Below, piece after piece: positions 6,007-18,257 of a DNA stretch of 43,543 nt (the first letter of the stretch is position 1; each line of letters starts with the position of its first letter). This stretch comes from Bacteroidota bacterium. GTDB taxonomy: Bacteria > Bacteroidota > Bacteroidia > Cytophagales > Cyclobacteriaceae. The stretch spans positions 1 through 43,543 of the forward strand of contig JACZXH010000023.1 of assembly GCA_022571715.1 (NCBI GenBank), read 5' to 3'. The notes beneath the pieces are model-generated. The model was given only the letters and a program-made list of their open reading frames with translations. It was not told the DNA's origin and ran no database searches. Made by a program: the position numbers and the translations under genes.

Positions 6007-7635
6007 TTAAGTTTGTATCATACCTACATTATATTTATCATTAATCGGTGCATTGTCGGCCGCCTCAATACCTATTGAAATTATTTTACGGGTATCATGC
6101 GGATCAATGATCCCGTCAATCCATAGCCGTGCTGCCGCATAGTAAGGACTTAGTTTTGAATTATACTTATCTTCTATTTCGTTGAGCAGTTTTTTTTTGT
6201 CTTCAGCAGAAATCGTTTTACCTTTTGCTTTCTCAGATGAAACTCTGATTTGCAATAAGGTTTGTGCAGCCGCATTACCACTCATCACTGCTATTTGGGC
6301 TGTAGGCCAGGCAAATATTAGCCGCGGATTATAGGCTTTACCACACATGGCATAATTGCCGGCGCCGTAAGAGTTTCCTATTATAAATGTAAATTTCGGT
6401 ACGACTGAATTAGCAACCGCATTTACCATTTTTGCACCATCTTTTATGATTCCCCCGTGTTCTGCACGCTTTCCTACCATAAAACCGCTTACATCTTGAA
6501 GAAAAACGAGTGGAATTTTCCGCTGGTTGCAGTTCATAATAAAACGGGCTGCTTTATTTGCAGAGTCAGAGTAGATTACACCTCCCATTTGCATTTCACC
6601 GTTGCGGGTTTTTACAATTTTTCGTTGATTTGCAACAATCCCTATCGACCACCCGTCCACCCGTGCATAGCCACATAGGAGTGATTTTCCATAAAGTTTT
6701 TTATACTCATCAAATACAGAATTGTCAACCAACGACCTGATAACTTCCTTCATGTCATACGGTTTAGTCCGGTCTTCAGGTATCAGGCCGTATATATGTC
6801 CAGGATCGGAATCAGGCAGTGCAGGGTTGACCCTGTTAAAGCCTGCTTTTTCAAAATAACCGATTTTGGCCATTACCGAACGGATATAATCGAGACATTC
6901 TTCGTCGCTATCAAATTTATTATCGGTTACTCCACTGATTTCGCAATGAGTTGTAGCGCCACCCAGTGTTTCATTGTTCACTTCTTCGCCAATAGCGGCT
7001 TTTACCAAGTACGAACCTGCCAGGAAGATGGAGCCGGTTTTGTCAACAATCATTGCCTCGTCAGCCATTACCGGCAGGTAGGCCCCCCCAGCGACGCAAT
7101 TCCCCATGATGGCAGCAATCTGGATGATTCCAAGCGAAGACATACGCGCATTGTTCATAAACTGCCTTCCAAAATGTTCTTTATCGGGAAATATTTCGTC
7201 CTGCATAGGCAGAAACACACCAGCGCTGTCAACGAGATAGATTACGGGCAATCGGTTTTCCATCGCGATCTCCTGAGCCCTGAGATTTTTCTTGGCGGTA
7301 ATGGGAAACCAAGCCCCGGCTTTTACCGTTGCATCATTTGCTACAATCATACATTGCCGGTCTTTTACGTAACCGATGCCGGTTACCACACCTCCTGACG
7401 GACATCCCCCATATTCCTCATACATTCCATAGCCGGCAAATACGCCAATTTCCAGAAAATCAGAATTATCGTCGATAAGGTATGCGATGCGTTCACGCGC
7501 AGTAAGCTTCCCTTTTTTGTGATGTGCCTCTATTTTTACAGGCCCTCCGCCTTCCTTTACCTTTTCTGATTTAACCTTTAGTTTCGAAAGGAGATTTTTG
7601 AATGCGTCTTCATTTTTGTTGAAATTAAGATCCAT
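6007..7635 (-). CDS. Acyl-CoA carboxylase beta subunit (carboxyltransferase), methylcrotonyl-CoA carboxylase-like
   Basis: This 542-residue cytoplasmic enzyme subunit transfers CO2 from carboxybiotin to an acyl-CoA. Two crotonase-like carboxyltransferase halves are visible, about residues 30-285 and 290-540. The first has KLTARERIAYLIDD, GAWFPITAKKNLRAQEIA, YLVDSAGVFLPMQDEIFPD, NARMSSLGIIQIAAIMGNC and AGGAYLPVMADEAMIV. The second has the glycine-rich acyl-CoA site FLQDVSGFMVGKRAEHGG and GAGNYAMCGKAYNPR. The pattern is closest to the methylcrotonyl-CoA carboxylase beta subunit of leucine degradation, but propionyl- or geranyl-CoA specificity cannot be excluded. The biotin-carrying alpha subunit is not in the window. 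It sits 13 bp after the MCE gene and 33 bp before the SirB1-like gene. Confidence 0.92.
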   Translation of the reverse strand: MDLNFNKNEDAFKNLLSKLKVKSEKVKEGGGPVKIEAHHKKGKLTARERIAYLIDDNSDFLEIGVFAGYGMYEEYGGCPSGGVVTGIGYVKDRQCMIVANDATVKAGAWFPITAKKNLRAQEIAMENRLPVIYLVDSAGVFLPMQDEIFPDKEHFGRQFMNNARMSSLGIIQIAAIMGNCVAGGAYLPVMADEAMIVDKTGSIFLAGSYLVKAAIGEEVNNETLGGATTHCEISGVTDNKFDSDEECLDYIRSVMAKIGYFEKAGFNRVNPALPDSDPGHIYGLIPEDRTKPYDMKEVIRSLVDNSVFDEYKKLYGKSLLCGYARVDGWSIGIVANQRKIVKTRNGEMQMGGVIYSDSANKAARFIMNCNQRKIPLVFLQDVSGFMVGKRAEHGGIIKDGAKMVNAVANSVVPKFTFIIGNSYGAGNYAMCGKAYNPRLIFAWPTAQIAVMSGNAAAQTLLQIRVSSEKAKGKTISAEDKKKLLNEIEDKYNSKLSPYYAAARLWIDGIIDPHDTRKIISIGIEAADNAPINDKYNVGMIQT

Positions 7636-12992: not shown

Positions 12993-15527
12993 ATGAAAAA
13001 AGTAATTTGCCTGACTGTTTTGTCAGCGATAGTATCATTAGTAGTTGCTCAGGAGTTAAAATCACCAGAAGAATTTCTTGGATATCAACTCGGTGAAAGG
13101 TTTACCCGGCACTATCGTGTAGTGGATTATTTTAAACATGTTGCCAGTGTAATGACCAACATAAAAGTAGAACAATACGGTGAAACCAATGAACACCGAC
13201 CGTTGATTGTAGCCTATGTAACCTCTCAGAAAAATTTTGACAGGCTCGAAGAGATCAGGCAAAACAATCTTCGAAGAGCCGGATTAGAATCAGGAACATT
13301 TTCAGATGAGGAAATTGCCATTGTATGGTTAAGCTATAATGTTCATGGAAATGAATCATCGAGCACCGAAGCAACAATGCTTACCCTGTATGAATTGGCA
13401 AATCCATCCAATCAAAAGACACAAAAGTGGCTTGAAAATACCGTTGTTATTCTTGATCCTTGTATCAATCCGGATGGACGCGACCGATATGCTAATTTTT
13501 ATAACCAATACGGTAATAAAATTCCCAATCCCAACCTTGATTCAAAAGAACACCATGAGCCGTGGCCGGGTGGACGCGCAAATCATTACTTATTTGATTT
13601 GAACAGAGACTGGGCATGGATTAGCCAGGTTGAATCAATACAACGAATTAAATTATACAATACCTGGATGCCTCATGTGCATGTTGATTTTCACGAACAA
13701 TTTATCAATAATCCGTATTACTTTCCTCCCGCCGCGCAGCCGTACCATAACATCATTACGCCGTGGCAAAGTGAATTTCAGGCATTGATCGGGAAAAATC
13801 ATGCTAAATATTTCGATGAAAATGGATGGATATATTTTACCAAAGAAGTATTTGACCTTTTTTATCCCAGCTACGGCGATACCTATCCTACATTCAACGG
13901 GGCAATCGGTATGACCTATGAAAAAGGTGGCGGAGGCCTGGCAGGCCTGGCAGGCATGATGGAAAACGGCGACACAGTGAAACTCAAAGACCGGATCATG
14001 CACCATCATACCACAGGATTATCAACGGTAGAGGTAAGTTCGGTAAACGCAGACCGGCTCGTAAAGGAATTCGAGGCGTACTTCAGCAGGGCAAAAAACA
14101 ACCCTGCCACAACGTATAAAGCGTTCATAATTAAAGGAACCAACAATCCGGACAAGATTAAAACGCTAACTAACTGGCTGGATACGCATAAAGTACAATA
14201 CGGGAGCGGATCTTCAGGAAATAAGCGGTTAACAGGTTACAGTTACAGAACCAATACTACTGTACCGGTTACACTTTTGCCAAATGACATTGTTGTAAGC
14301 GCATACCAGCCAAAGTCAAATTTTTTAAATGTGCTTTTTGAGCCCAAATCCAAGCTTGTTGATTCACTTACGTACGATATCACGAGCTGGTCCATTCCAT
14401 ATATTTACGACCTCGACGCATATGCGGTTACAGAAAAAATAGCGGTCTCACCCCGCAGTAATCAGCCGGTAAGTTTCACCCCATTGGAGAGTGATAGTAA
14501 CGCATATGCTTACATTGGAAAATACGAATCGTTGCAAGATTTAAAATGGTTTGCCTGGCTACTGAAAATGGGGGTGAAAGTACGAGTAGCCCACAAAGCT
14601 TTTGCGATTGATGGCAAAACATATGAACGTGGAACCATCGTGGTACTGCGTTGGGACAATGAACACCTTAAAAATTTTGATAAATACATGGCCAATGGTT
14701 CTGATAAATTCAGGCGATCTACAACGAAAGTATATTCCGGGTATGTCTCATCAGGTAATGATTTTGGTTCGCGATACTATAAACTAGTTAAAGCGCCTGA
14801 AGTAGCTGTTCTTAGTGGAAATCAGGTACGTTCGCTTGATTTTGGTGAAGTATGGTATTATTTCGAAAACGACCTAAACTATCCGGTTACGATTATCGAT
14901 ACAGATTATTTTGACCGAATTGACCTGGATAAATATGATGTACTCATCGTTCCAGGAGGTTCTTATAAGATATTTGATGAAGATCGCAGAAAGACGCTTA
15001 CCAAATGGGTGCGGTCTGGAGGCCGTCTGGTGCTGATAAGCAATGCGCTCCGGTCTTTCGTTGACACGGAAGAGTTTTCACTGAAAAAATACCTTTCGGA
15101 AGAGGAGGAAACTGAAGCAGAAGAAATACAGGAAAAAAGGGTTGAAGAGCAAATGCTAAACCCGTATAAAGATGAATTAAGAACTCGTATTTCTGACCAG
15201 ATGCCTGGGGCAATTTATCAGGTGAAGCTTGACAACAGCCATCCGCTTGCTTTTGGTTATCGTGACAGCTATTATACCCTGAAATTAAACAGCTACAGGT
15301 ATGCCTACCTTGAAAATGGCAGAAACATAGGAATAATCGAATCATCTTCCAGCCTTGTTTCAGGCTTTGTAGGCGCCAATGTGAAGGATACCATTGGTGA
15401 AACACTTGTTTTCGGTGTGGAAGATATGGGATCCGGGTCGGTTGTTTATCTGGTTGACAATCCATTATTCCGGGCATTCTGGTATAATGGCAAACTTATT
15501 TTCGGTAACGCTGTGTTTATTCGCTAA
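12993..15527 (+). CDS. Secreted M14-family zinc carboxypeptidase with C-terminal glutamine-amidotransferase-like domain
   Basis: This is 844 residues from ATG 12993, which yields a clean signal peptide (MKKVICLTVLSAIVSLVVAQ). The frame stays open back to a TTG at 12918, but that adds 25 residues before the signal. The peptidase domain (about 40-360) has the zinc motif VHGNESSSTEA (His-x-x-Glu), DPCINPDGRDRY, and DFHEQF supplying the third ligand or substrate-binding His. A middle beta-rich region follows. A class I amidotransferase-like fold appears at about 600-700 (YDVLIVPGGSYK, KWVRSGGRLVLIS). Such proteins are common exported peptidases in Bacteroidota; substrates are probably peptides or proteins taken from the surroundings. 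The catalytic Glu of the C-terminal peptidase part was not pinned down. Confidence 0.88.
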   Translation: MKKVICLTVLSAIVSLVVAQELKSPEEFLGYQLGERFTRHYRVVDYFKHVASVMTNIKVEQYGETNEHRPLIVAYVTSQKNFDRLEEIRQNNLRRAGLESGTFSDEEIAIVWLSYNVHGNESSSTEATMLTLYELANPSNQKTQKWLENTVVILDPCINPDGRDRYANFYNQYGNKIPNPNLDSKEHHEPWPGGRANHYLFDLNRDWAWISQVESIQRIKLYNTWMPHVHVDFHEQFINNPYYFPPAAQPYHNIITPWQSEFQALIGKNHAKYFDENGWIYFTKEVFDLFYPSYGDTYPTFNGAIGMTYEKGGGGLAGLAGMMENGDTVKLKDRIMHHHTTGLSTVEVSSVNADRLVKEFEAYFSRAKNNPATTYKAFIIKGTNNPDKIKTLTNWLDTHKVQYGSGSSGNKRLTGYSYRTNTTVPVTLLPNDIVVSAYQPKSNFLNVLFEPKSKLVDSLTYDITSWSIPYIYDLDAYAVTEKIAVSPRSNQPVSFTPLESDSNAYAYIGKYESLQDLKWFAWLLKMGVKVRVAHKAFAIDGKTYERGTIVVLRWDNEHLKNFDKYMANGSDKFRRSTTKVYSGYVSSGNDFGSRYYKLVKAPEVAVLSGNQVRSLDFGEVWYYFENDLNYPVTIIDTDYFDRIDLDKYDVLIVPGGSYKIFDEDRRKTLTKWVRSGGRLVLISNALRSFVDTEEFSLKKYLSEEEETEAEEIQEKRVEEQMLNPYKDELRTRISDQMPGAIYQVKLDNSHPLAFGYRDSYYTLKLNSYRYAYLENGRNIGIIESSSSLVSGFVGANVKDTIGETLVFGVEDMGSGSVVYLVDNPLFRAFWYNGKLIFGNAVFIR

Positions 15528-15597
15528 ACAGGTTTTTTCTTTTCGGTGCCTAAATCTGAATTGTTTCATGTTATTAAATTGTTTGAGTTTGACCTTA

Positions 15598-15908
15598 TAG
15601 AATTAACCATTTAGATATTAATAATAAAACGAGTATAGCATTTGAAATTGCCCTTTAAAAAGATGATTTGAATAACTTAATAAATAATTCAGTTCTACCA
15701 ATAATTGAGATTGGTAAAGTATCATGGATAAATGCGAAATTTAATTATTGGATATTGAAGGGACCAACCTGACAAAGTTCAGCACCTATGTCCCCCTCTT
15801 CGAGGGGGCGTAGGGGGAGGAAAAATCAGGGTCGCTGTACTACTAAGATACATAAAGTAAATTATTACAAATGAATAGAAAATTTTAAAACTTAGATGGT
15901 TAATTCTA
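15598..15908. mobile_element. MITE-like non-autonomous element with 13-bp TIRs and 8-bp target duplication
   Basis: The element starts with TAGAATTAACCAT (15598-15610) and ends with its exact reverse complement ATGGTTAATTCTA (15896-15908). The inverted similarity fades out over the next few bases. It is flanked on both sides by the direct repeat TGACCTTA (15590-15597 and 15909-15916), as expected from an 8-bp target-site duplication. Inside there is no long open frame. There is a 7-bp hairpin, TACCAAT/ATTGGTA (15696-15716), and a C/G-rich hairpin, CCCCCTC/GAGGGGG (15792-15808), with a second G run that allows an alternative fold. No transposase is present, so it would need one in trans. The family is not recognised. 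Confidence 0.7.
15792..15818. repeat. C/G-rich hairpin within the MITE-like element
   Basis: CCCCCTC at 15792-15798 pairs perfectly with GAGGGGG at 15802-15808 around TTC. TCCCCCT at 15791-15797 can instead pair with AGGGGGA at 15812-15818. Words of this type are frequent in spacers of some Bacteroidota genomes, which is my recollection. A shorter, decayed version (CCCCCTAAAGGG) lies near 41301. Confidence 0.6.
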
Positions 15909-16034
15909 TGACCTTATTCTATTTACGTATTTCAAAAGATTAAATACAGGGAATAAAAAGTGTATTTATAATCCAGAGATTTTCTGAATTTAGGAAAAAT
16001 ACAAAGTGTATAATTTATTCACAGAAGTGGCCTT

Positions 16035-18257
16035 CTAATTACCCTCTTTAAACTTTTTAAATTTCGAATCAGTTTCACGTTTAGGGAAATAATTGTCTTC
16101 CACATTTGTATCGGCTGTTTCAAGATGCGGGTCAATGGTTATGTTTACGACCTCCTTGTCTTTAGTGAACACTTTGGTAACCTGCTCTTCGTTGTACCGC
16201 CAGATTTCTGCAGGAATTTGTTCAATTTCTGTTGTACCGTCCTTGTAGGTCCATTCGATTATTACCGGCGTCACCAACCCGCCCGTGTTTTTCAATGTCA
16301 CTTCGTACATATTCTTACCTGCAAGTATGGCGCGTACTTCATCATCGTTAATAGTGTTTCTGAATTCACCGTAAAACCCGGGATTTGTATCGGTAATGGT
16401 AATAAGTTCGTATCCATTACTGAAGTCGGTATAATTACCGTCTTCGTCCAGGTTTGAAGGGTTTTCGATTTTACCTTTCTGTGTGCGCCCTTCCAGTGCC
16501 GTTTCGGTATCCCTTATTTTATACCATTTTACATTTTCCACGGTCACGTCCACATGATCGATACCAAAAAACCAGCCTCTCCAGAACCAGTCGAGGTCAA
16601 CAGCAGAGGCGTCTTCCATAGTACGGAAAAAATCGGCAGGCTCTGGATGTTTAAAAGCCCAGCGTTGTGCATAGGTTTTGAACGCTTTGTCAAAAAGTTC
16701 AGGTCCCATTACAGTTTCTCTGAGAATGTTCATTGCCGTAGCCGGTTTGGCATATGCATTGTTTCCGAATTGAAGTAACTGCTCCGAGTTTGTCATGATG
16801 GGACGGATATTACTTTTGTCCCCTTTCATATACCGCACAATGTTTTTAGCCGGACCTCTTCTCGATGGAAAATTTTCATATTTCTCCACTTCGGTGCGAT
16901 ATTGTAAAAATGTATTCAGGCCTTCGTCCATCCAGGTCCATTGACGCTCATCCGAATTGATGATCATTGGAAAGAAATTGTGACCCACTTCATGAATGAT
17001 AACCCCGATCATCCGGTTTTTGGTGCCTTCTGAAAAGGTACCATCCGAATTGGGACGACCAAAATTGAAGCATATCATCGGATATTCCATTCCGATACTG
17101 GCTGCGTGAACGGATATGGCTTTGGGATATGGATAATCTATAGTGTATTTTGAATAGGTTTCGAGTGTATTTTTAACTGCAATAGTTGATTCCTGTTCCC
17201 ACAGTGGATTTCCTTCTTTCGGATAATACGACATGGCAAGAGGTGTACGGCTTCCCACATTCACTGCCATTGCATCCCAGATAAATTTCCGGGATGAGGC
17301 AAAAGCAAAATCCCTGACATTTTCAGCTTTGAAATGCCATGTACTCTTACTGGTCACCGGCGATTTTTCTTTCACTTCGGCTTCTTTCTGTGTTACAATG
17401 ATCACAGGCTTTTCAAAGCTGTTTTTTGCCTCTTCGAATCGTTTTTCCTGTTCTTTTGTTAATACTTCTTTGGGGTTTTGAAGTATGCCGGTAGCGCCAA
17501 CCACATGGTCAGAAGGTACGGTAATTTTTACATCATAATTGCCAAAAGTAAGTGCAAATTCGCCGCGTCCGAGAAATTGCTTGTTTTGCCAACCTTCAAC
17601 ATCACTGTACACGGCCATTCGGGGAAACCATTGGGCGATGGTGTATAGGTAATTTCCGTCTTCTTCGAAAAATTCCATCCCACCTCTTCCGCGAATAAGC
17701 ATCCGGTCGTTGATATTATACCACCAGTCGATTGAAAATGCCACTTTGTCACCAGGTTTTAATTCCTGGTCGAGGTCGATACGCATCATGGTTTTGTTGA
17801 TAGTGTAAGTTAGTCCGATTCCGGTAGCACTCTTTACCGCGGTGATCCGGAATCCACCGTCGTATCCGGTTACTGTGGTATTACCCATGGCCATAAAATA
17901 TGCCGGAACAGAATCGCCACGTATCGTCGAGGTCCTCACCAATGGAGAATCTGAGTCTTTTGCACGTATGTTTTGATCGAGTTGCACCCAAATATAACTC
18001 AGCGGATCAGGTGACTGGTTAAAATAAGTGATTGTTTCCGATCCTCTGATTGTCTGATTATCATCGTTAAGCTCTAATTCGATTACATAATCGGCTCGCT
18101 GTTGCCAGTAGGCAGGTCCGGGAGCTCCTGAGGCCGAACGGTATTCATTTGGCGTAGGAAGCATGGTTCCGAGTTGTTCAAATTTTTTACCCCATTCCTG
18201 TGCCCATAAATCCTGTCCGGAAAGGACTACCAGAATTGTTAAAATCAATCTTTTCAT
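16035..18257 (-). CDS. M1-family aminopeptidase-like metallopeptidase, exported
   Basis: This 740-residue protein has a signal peptide (residues 1-19, ending LWAQ) and the full M1 zinc motif. HEVGH gives ligands His422 and His426 with catalytic Glu423, and Glu445 in WTWMDEGLN is the third ligand, at the correct HExxH-x18-E spacing. The N-terminal part is the beta-saddle domain (ADYVIELELNDDNQTIRGSETITYF, with the expected M1 pattern). The C-terminal half is a beta-rich region with an Ig-like domain. The family usually has a GxMEN substrate motif; the corresponding segment here reads ASIGMEYPMICF, which suggests altered amino-terminal recognition. It lies 58 bp after the HupE-like gene and is probably cotranscribed with it. 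Confidence 0.9.
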   Translation of the reverse strand: MKRLILTILVVLSGQDLWAQEWGKKFEQLGTMLPTPNEYRSASGAPGPAYWQQRADYVIELELNDDNQTIRGSETITYFNQSPDPLSYIWVQLDQNIRAKDSDSPLVRTSTIRGDSVPAYFMAMGNTTVTGYDGGFRITAVKSATGIGLTYTINKTMMRIDLDQELKPGDKVAFSIDWWYNINDRMLIRGRGGMEFFEEDGNYLYTIAQWFPRMAVYSDVEGWQNKQFLGRGEFALTFGNYDVKITVPSDHVVGATGILQNPKEVLTKEQEKRFEEAKNSFEKPVIIVTQKEAEVKEKSPVTSKSTWHFKAENVRDFAFASSRKFIWDAMAVNVGSRTPLAMSYYPKEGNPLWEQESTIAVKNTLETYSKYTIDYPYPKAISVHAASIGMEYPMICFNFGRPNSDGTFSEGTKNRMIGVIIHEVGHNFFPMIINSDERQWTWMDEGLNTFLQYRTEVEKYENFPSRRGPAKNIVRYMKGDKSNIRPIMTNSEQLLQFGNNAYAKPATAMNILRETVMGPELFDKAFKTYAQRWAFKHPEPADFFRTMEDASAVDLDWFWRGWFFGIDHVDVTVENVKWYKIRDTETALEGRTQKGKIENPSNLDEDGNYTDFSNGYELITITDTNPGFYGEFRNTINDDEVRAILAGKNMYEVTLKNTGGLVTPVIIEWTYKDGTTEIEQIPAEIWRYNEEQVTKVFTKDKEVVNITIDPHLETADTNVEDNYFPKRETDSKFKKFKEGN

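Follow-up and report, generated by a model that had tools for sequence, protein, structure and literature searches.

What is the short segment, free of open reading frames of at least 80 aa, that lies between two convergent peptidase genes in a Bacteroidetes genome, and how did it come to be there? The window, meaning the whole stretch of 43,543 nucleotides analysed here, belongs to contig C78 of the host genome (G000), a 3.47-Mb draft in 136 contigs; C-numbers denote contigs throughout, and G001 and G002 are sister species of the same genus. In the window, the gene of a Peptidase_M14 protein ends at 15527, and the opposite strand carries a Peptidase_M1 gene whose end is at 16035. A sequence-only reading had described the segment between them as a MITE-like element left behind by a DDE-type transposase, and had raised the possibility of a regulatory or RNA structure in its interior.

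The anatomy held up in full upon re-reading of the sequence. The element occupies exactly the coordinates first given for it, with 13-bp perfect terminal inverted repeats, an 8-bp direct repeat on both outer edges, a span of 311 bp between these repeats, and two interior hairpins, one of which is C/G-rich (Table 1). Consistent with the claimed lack of an open frame, no ORF of at least 80 aa, the lower limit of the ORF list, overlaps 15590–15916. Orientation was set so that TAGAATTAACCATTTAGATATT is the left end, and the end sequence of the family can also be written TAGAATTAACCATYTA.... With two mismatches allowed, the 13-mer alone is found twice in the window against a shuffle mean of 2.40, i.e., at chance level. 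The window contains one exact inverted 13-bp pair that is framed, within 1 kb, by an exact repeat of an 8-mer, none was present in 30 mononucleotide-shuffled windows, and the chance expectation for such an arrangement is about 2e-5. As a separate observation, the neighboring Peptidase_M1 gene seemingly has two relatives in G002 (C92 and C225), which are 86% and ~79–80% alike at the DNA level.

Table 1. Coordinates of the element, its edges and its internal features in the window
Feature	Position	Strand	Basis or remark
Target site duplication, left copy, TGACCTTA	15590..15597	.	8/8 identical to right copy
Very probable MITE, subfamily A, 311-bp copy with 24-bp internal deletion	15598..15908	+	sequence and copy alignment
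Terminal inverted repeat, left, TAGAATTAACCAT	15598..15610	+	sequence
AT-rich internal hairpin, CCAATAATT...AATTATTGG	15698..15751	+	RNA folding; arms 15698–15706/15743–15751
G/C-rich palindrome CCCCCTC-TTC-GAGGGGG, dispersed REP-like repeat type	15792..15808	+	similar stretches elsewhere in G000–G002
Third (purine) arm of REP-like unit, AGGGGGAGG	15812..15820	+	3 nt past palindrome; could pair with same pyrimidine arm
Junction of 24-bp deletion relative to five other full copies, approximate	15883..15890	+	copy alignment
Terminal inverted repeat, right, ATGGTTAATTCTA	15896..15908	-	sequence
Target site duplication, right copy, TGACCTTA	15909..15916	.	sequence

A search of the host genome, proposed along with the original description, showed the element to be multi-copy, with six full copies (C78, which is the window copy, C85, C72, C124, C84, and C106) and a half copy on C56 that consists of the left 105 bp. 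The five other full copies are 334–338 bp long, and the window copy is a deletion derivative that lacks 24 bp near its right end. Pairwise identity among the full copies is 95.8–98.5% over ungapped columns (15 pairs), and the terminal inverted repeats match at 13 of 13 positions in four of the six and at 12 of 13 in the other two. The target duplications are perfect at C78 (TGACCTTA, 8/8) and at C106 (AAAATTAA, 8/8), the latter being less telling because it lies inside a 7-bp tandem run, and they match at 7/8 in both C85 and C124. At C72 and C84 the match is 6/8 within each copy and a perfect 8/8 and 8/8 if the two are cross-paired, since the left repeat of C72 equals the right repeat of C84 and the left repeat of C84 equals the right repeat of C72. 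Moreover, on contig C107 of G001 the left flank of C72 adjoins the right flank of C84, with one target copy between them. The cross-matching duplications and the adjacent flanks therefore indicate that flanks have been exchanged between the two copies, either in the genome or in its assembly. The copies with swapped duplications are L003 (G000 C72:21282–21616) and L005 (G000 C84:13226–13561).

Comparison of orthologous loci, likewise suggested at the outset, was carried out with the joined flanks of five copies as queries, and it yielded uninterrupted sister sites for two insertions. At the C106 site, G001 C82 and G002 C280 read through without the element; divergence is evident near the junction, where the tandem run is incomplete. 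The TAAATATA insertion has its empty site at the C107 junction of G001. The window's own site is not cleanly empty. In G001 the orthologous gap holds an unrelated 74 bp and lacks the element. In G002 C225 a single TGACCTT follows 43 bp of aligned left flank (0/1000 shuffles as good). The match to the right flank is weak, and an alignment that extends a few bases into the element's end does equally well (score 45 against 40), so that this site counts among the absences of the element and not among the clean empty sites. Of the two C124 flanks, G001 yielded just the left one, and the C85 joined-flank query gave no match over the junction.

Two of the copies were seen to have other repeats nearby. 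On C56, the half copy (L007) is followed, after position 1605, by a different dispersed repeat (TTGGGGCGTT...CTTTTCCCATAGGGA...), which by eye is also present to the left of the C84 copy (L005). In G001, sequences on 17 contigs match the left flank of the C84 copy, with 24 matches in all, many of them close to contig ends.

At 311–338 bp and without a transposase gene (ORFs having been checked on the window copy), the element lies within the 50–1000 bp expected of MITEs, and it combines terminal inverted repeats, a target duplication of constant 8-bp length, several copies, and empty sites in relatives. The window element is thus, with high probability, a non-autonomous TIR/TSD element (MITE) moved by an enzyme that would act in trans. 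It has inserted at several sites with an 8-bp duplication and has undergone later decay and exchange. The family is real and new, and its kind is already known. The MITEs described in Porphyromonas gingivalis (PMC4596501), MITE239, MITE464/PgRS, MITE700, and BrickBuilt, resemble the present family in being short, gene-less, and bounded by inverted ends, and in nesting (MITE239 inside BrickBuilt_18). According to that source, several of the P. gingivalis elements have ends like those of host IS5-family elements, whereas TAGAATTAACCAT matches no IS found, and the duplications of BrickBuilt vary in length, unlike the 8 bp of the window family. The family is well defined, with empty sites as well as 8-bp duplications, in a genus of Bacteroidetes represented here by draft genomes only, and the two copies with exchanged flanks argue that elements of this sort have a part in shaping these genomes, or else their assemblies.

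The alternative that the window holds an assembly artefact or a chance inverted repeat deserves mention, given that the host assembly is a draft in 136 contigs and that the swapped duplications of C72 and C84 could conceivably reflect a chimeric join. This explanation is scarcely credible, as it is contradicted by six sites with their own duplications, by the empty sister sites, and by the very low chance expectation given above.

Among 59 genomes (host included), in most of which 12 candidates were scored, the host alone was found to contain the subfamily A element; short matches to the hairpin, to an end, or to part of the interior came from four of the other genomes. Plasmid and phage collections gave no full-length match. 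A second subfamily, B, was defined by end patterns and a B query, and has TAAAACTAACCACTTAAATATTA at its left end and ...AAAACTTAAATGGTTAATTCTA at its right. The B query matched 21 times in G001, nine times in G000, and twice in G002, with several of these matches being the ends of A copies. Three B copies possess both ends, with spans of 255, 388, and 458 bp; their flanking 8-mers, compared by eye, match at 6/8 (C87) and 7/8 (C170), and C165 shows no clear duplication. Between the interiors of A and B the similarity is not significant (shuffles did as well in 21, 36, and 61 of 500 cases), and the kinship of the two subfamilies therefore rests on the ends and on the central hairpin, which is common to A and many B copies. 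Because A is confined to the host among the 59 genomes and diverged B copies with related ends occur in the genus, subfamily A was probably amplified after the host split from its sister species.

A degenerate 23-base end pattern, run over the genome collection, identified 14 loci, six of them in the sister MAG JADFHN01 (Bacteroidetes bacterium B34T3L8). The other eight are single ends in other records, with no inward-facing second end in the stored stretch, and are regarded as chance or undecided matches. In the sister MAG, an isolated family end was seen by eye just after an apparent broken integron-type integrase (L101, ~6300–6850). A relationship of the TAACC/GGTTA ends to integron attC sites was considered and dropped following comparison with a consensus.

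The question of what moves these elements has a less direct answer. Of the original attribution to a DDE-type transposase, the movement itself is borne out by the copies, the 8-bp duplications, and the empty sites. An IS with matching ends, the third check proposed, did not turn up within the patterns, flanks, and families searched, nor did any other autonomous element sharing the ends, and the term "DDE-type" is thus read from the anatomy. The combination of terminal inverted repeats and a duplication of constant length would point to an unseen transposase of the DDE type acting in trans. IS families that generate 8-bp duplications include IS66, IS256, ISL3, IS1595, and IS6. Of these, the two families searched for, IS1595 (PF12762) and IS256 (PF00872), had no transposase in any of the three genomes of the genus. 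PF01609 transposases numbered zero in G000, zero in G002, and three in G001, and the IS4-type transposases of G001 (L114–L116) have no TAGAATTAACCA within two mismatches nearby. Across the 49 end-pattern loci of the three genomes, inward-facing end pairs spanned only 255–458 bp and none spanned 600–2900 bp, as seen with 1.5-kb flanks that would miss partners farther out. Orphan MITEs without an autonomous partner are known, and a partner is not required of every MITE.

The central G/C-rich hairpin introduces a second repeat type into the picture. Similar stretches occur outside the A element in G000, G001, and G002, with 84–92% identity over ~35–56 bp. They share the layout of a palindrome plus an extra arm, and some are located beside genes of the nuclease domain DUF559. 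The hairpin fits better as one unit of a distinct dispersed repeat type than as part of the regulatory or RNA structure that had been suggested for the interior. DUF559 (PF04480) ORFs, identified by HMM, number two in G000, four in G001, and two in G002. At L117 and L124, inverted hairpins clearly flank DUF559 on each side; they are degenerate or one-sided at others of the eight loci, with L118, which is without the motif, left out of this examination. In addition, tblastn placed DUF559 pieces in the G001 B copies on C2, C131, and C87 (36.9 kb) and beside C93, and at G002 C161 a DUF559 piece found by HMM is followed by B-like sequence. None was detected by tblastn (E 1e-3) in or around the seven A copies, so that the hairpin is the window's sole link to DUF559. 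DUF559 domains bracketed by inverted pyrimidine-purine hairpins were also noted at G000 C76 and C79, G001 C2, and G002 C95.

The hairpin is probably a nested unit of this other repeat type that the MITE carries as a passenger; to judge from subfamily B, it would have arrived by insertion and been trimmed by deletion. Alternatively, the DUF559 nuclease of some larger relatives could itself be the mover, in which case the small copies would be deletion derivatives of an element with the order TIR, hairpin, DUF559, hairpin, TIR. The DUF559 pieces in the G001 B copies and at G002 C161, along with the one that adjoins G001 C93, would fit such an origin, as would the failure to find a conventional transposase with the element's ends. 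Degenerate DUF559 look-alikes at G000 C27, G001 C63, and G002 C148 point the same way by eye only, having failed tblastn at 1e-3. However, no copy with both termini and an intact DUF559 was seen, and the score for DUF559 pieces in A copies is 0/7. In the rest of the class, hairpins form the boundaries of the DUF559 units, and inspection of 20 loci by eye revealed no flanking duplication. A nuclease of the DUF559 type is not known to join strands on its own. Nesting is the simpler account, and a DUF559 mover is very unlikely.

It is also conceivable that the family is a repeated functional regulatory leader or structured RNA, e.g., a mobile promoter or 5′ leader. The predicted RNA fold of the whole element is strong (-84.3 kcal/mol versus -55.3 ± 4.6 for shuffles, z -6.3), and still gives a z of -4.5 without the element ends (15625–15880), but folding is to be expected of any inverted repeats. 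Rfam found no family in the window and ARAGORN no tRNA; promoter-like sites are at background (4 against 3.1 ± 1.9), and terminator-like sites were not found. At 12 of 16 countable A and B right ends, a co-directional ORF starts in the right end or within ~60 bp of it, where one unclear end and one orthologous duplicate were dropped and C76 and C130 were counted without a fixed start codon. This bias is weak, with a one-sided binomial value of ~0.04, uncorrected, and the window copy itself sits between convergent genes. An orientation rule, by which the left end faces a gene's 3′ end, was dropped because B copies do not follow it: the pattern holds for 7/7 A copies, counting for C84 a doubtful ORF 584 bp away, and for B stands at 7 against 6. 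Gene context of the A and B copies gives no firm role, and a regulatory or RNA function for the family is unlikely, leaving a non-autonomous MITE as the favored explanation.

Some details of the right end are worth recording. Within the right terminal repeat lies ATGGTTAATTCT (M V N S), which is in frame with the downstream ORF at three loci (L066, 5253–5265; L004; and L073); at L066, the gene of a 3-hydroxyacyl-CoA dehydrogenase may take its start codon from it. For B copies, the idea of a conserved short peptide close to the right end was rejected, as the frames differ among copies.

The association between DUF559 and hairpins extends well beyond the genus. DUF559 was detected in 74 of 149 genomes of the class (E 1e-10), and 30 loci (L168–L197), one from each of 30 genomes and high-scoring, hence a biased part of the matches, were inspected under a single hairpin definition chosen after looking at examples. 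A hairpin was present on the 5′ side of DUF559 in 22/30, on the 3′ side in 27/30, and on both sides in 19/30, against 2, 0, and 0 of 30 in control stretches 730–900 bp away and 0.3 and 0.25 of 30 in shuffles. At 17 of the 30 loci, DUF559 shares a long open frame with domains of a host enzyme, namely LeuRS (nine), MetH (five), acetyl-CoA synthetase (two), or HsdR (one), and at six of these 17 it splits one host domain into two stretches. In a tree of 35 DUF559 domains, many of whose forks are weak, in-frame units stand apart from free-standing ones (2 changes versus 11.9 in shuffles), and single insertion sites do not form single clades.

Exact inverted hairpin ends of 20–25 bp, placed 521–555 bp apart, occur at four of 20 free-standing loci, and an exact inverted pair of at least 11 bp is absent from nine of the 20. 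The idea that terminal inverted repeats delimit the DUF559 units of other genomes in the class was set aside, as the long inverted pairs in 20 loci are the hairpins themselves or short, chance-like matches.

Taken together, we tentatively suggest, with somewhat less than even confidence, that the hairpin in the window is the solo end of an undescribed mobile unit of Bacteroidetes. Such a unit would consist of a DUF559 (Vsr-like) gene between inverted pyrimidine-purine hairpins, with no target duplication noticed. It would be capable of in-frame insertion into essential enzymes and, within the present genus, would be nested in, and perhaps once carried by, a TIR element. The DUF559 hairpin system looks new; no description of DUF559/PF04480 with palindromes, repeats, or in-frame insertion was found in the literature searched, which mostly excluded subscription journals.

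Two known systems invite comparison. REPs with HUH (Y1) transposases (RAYT/TnpA-REP; PMC6006769, PMC3733652) likewise feature a small dispersed palindrome plus an extra arm around a nuclease gene, and one TnpA-REP subclass of Bacteroidetes is described as flanked by atypical secondary structures (PMC6006769). The gene seen between the present hairpins, in contrast, is DUF559 and not an HUH transposase. If the suggestion is correct, the unit would be hairpin-ended and would employ a restriction-type nuclease in the role that an HUH transposase has for REPs. Rickettsia palindromic elements, inserted in frame in ORFs (PMC3733652), are similar to many DUF559 units in being palindrome-bearing units that are tolerated in proteins; they differ in that the DUF559 units carry a nuclease domain and recur in the same region of the same enzymes. 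The occurrence of hairpin-bracketed nuclease genes in frame in leuS, metH, acs, and hsdR raises the questions of how the units move and why these enzymes tolerate them. Finally, at L085, L086, L120, and L152, the loops of G/C-rich hairpins are, by eye, invaded by other palindromes (GCCTGCCTGCCGGCAGGC-like and GCACGCTGTCGCCGAAGCTTTAGCGCAGGC-like).
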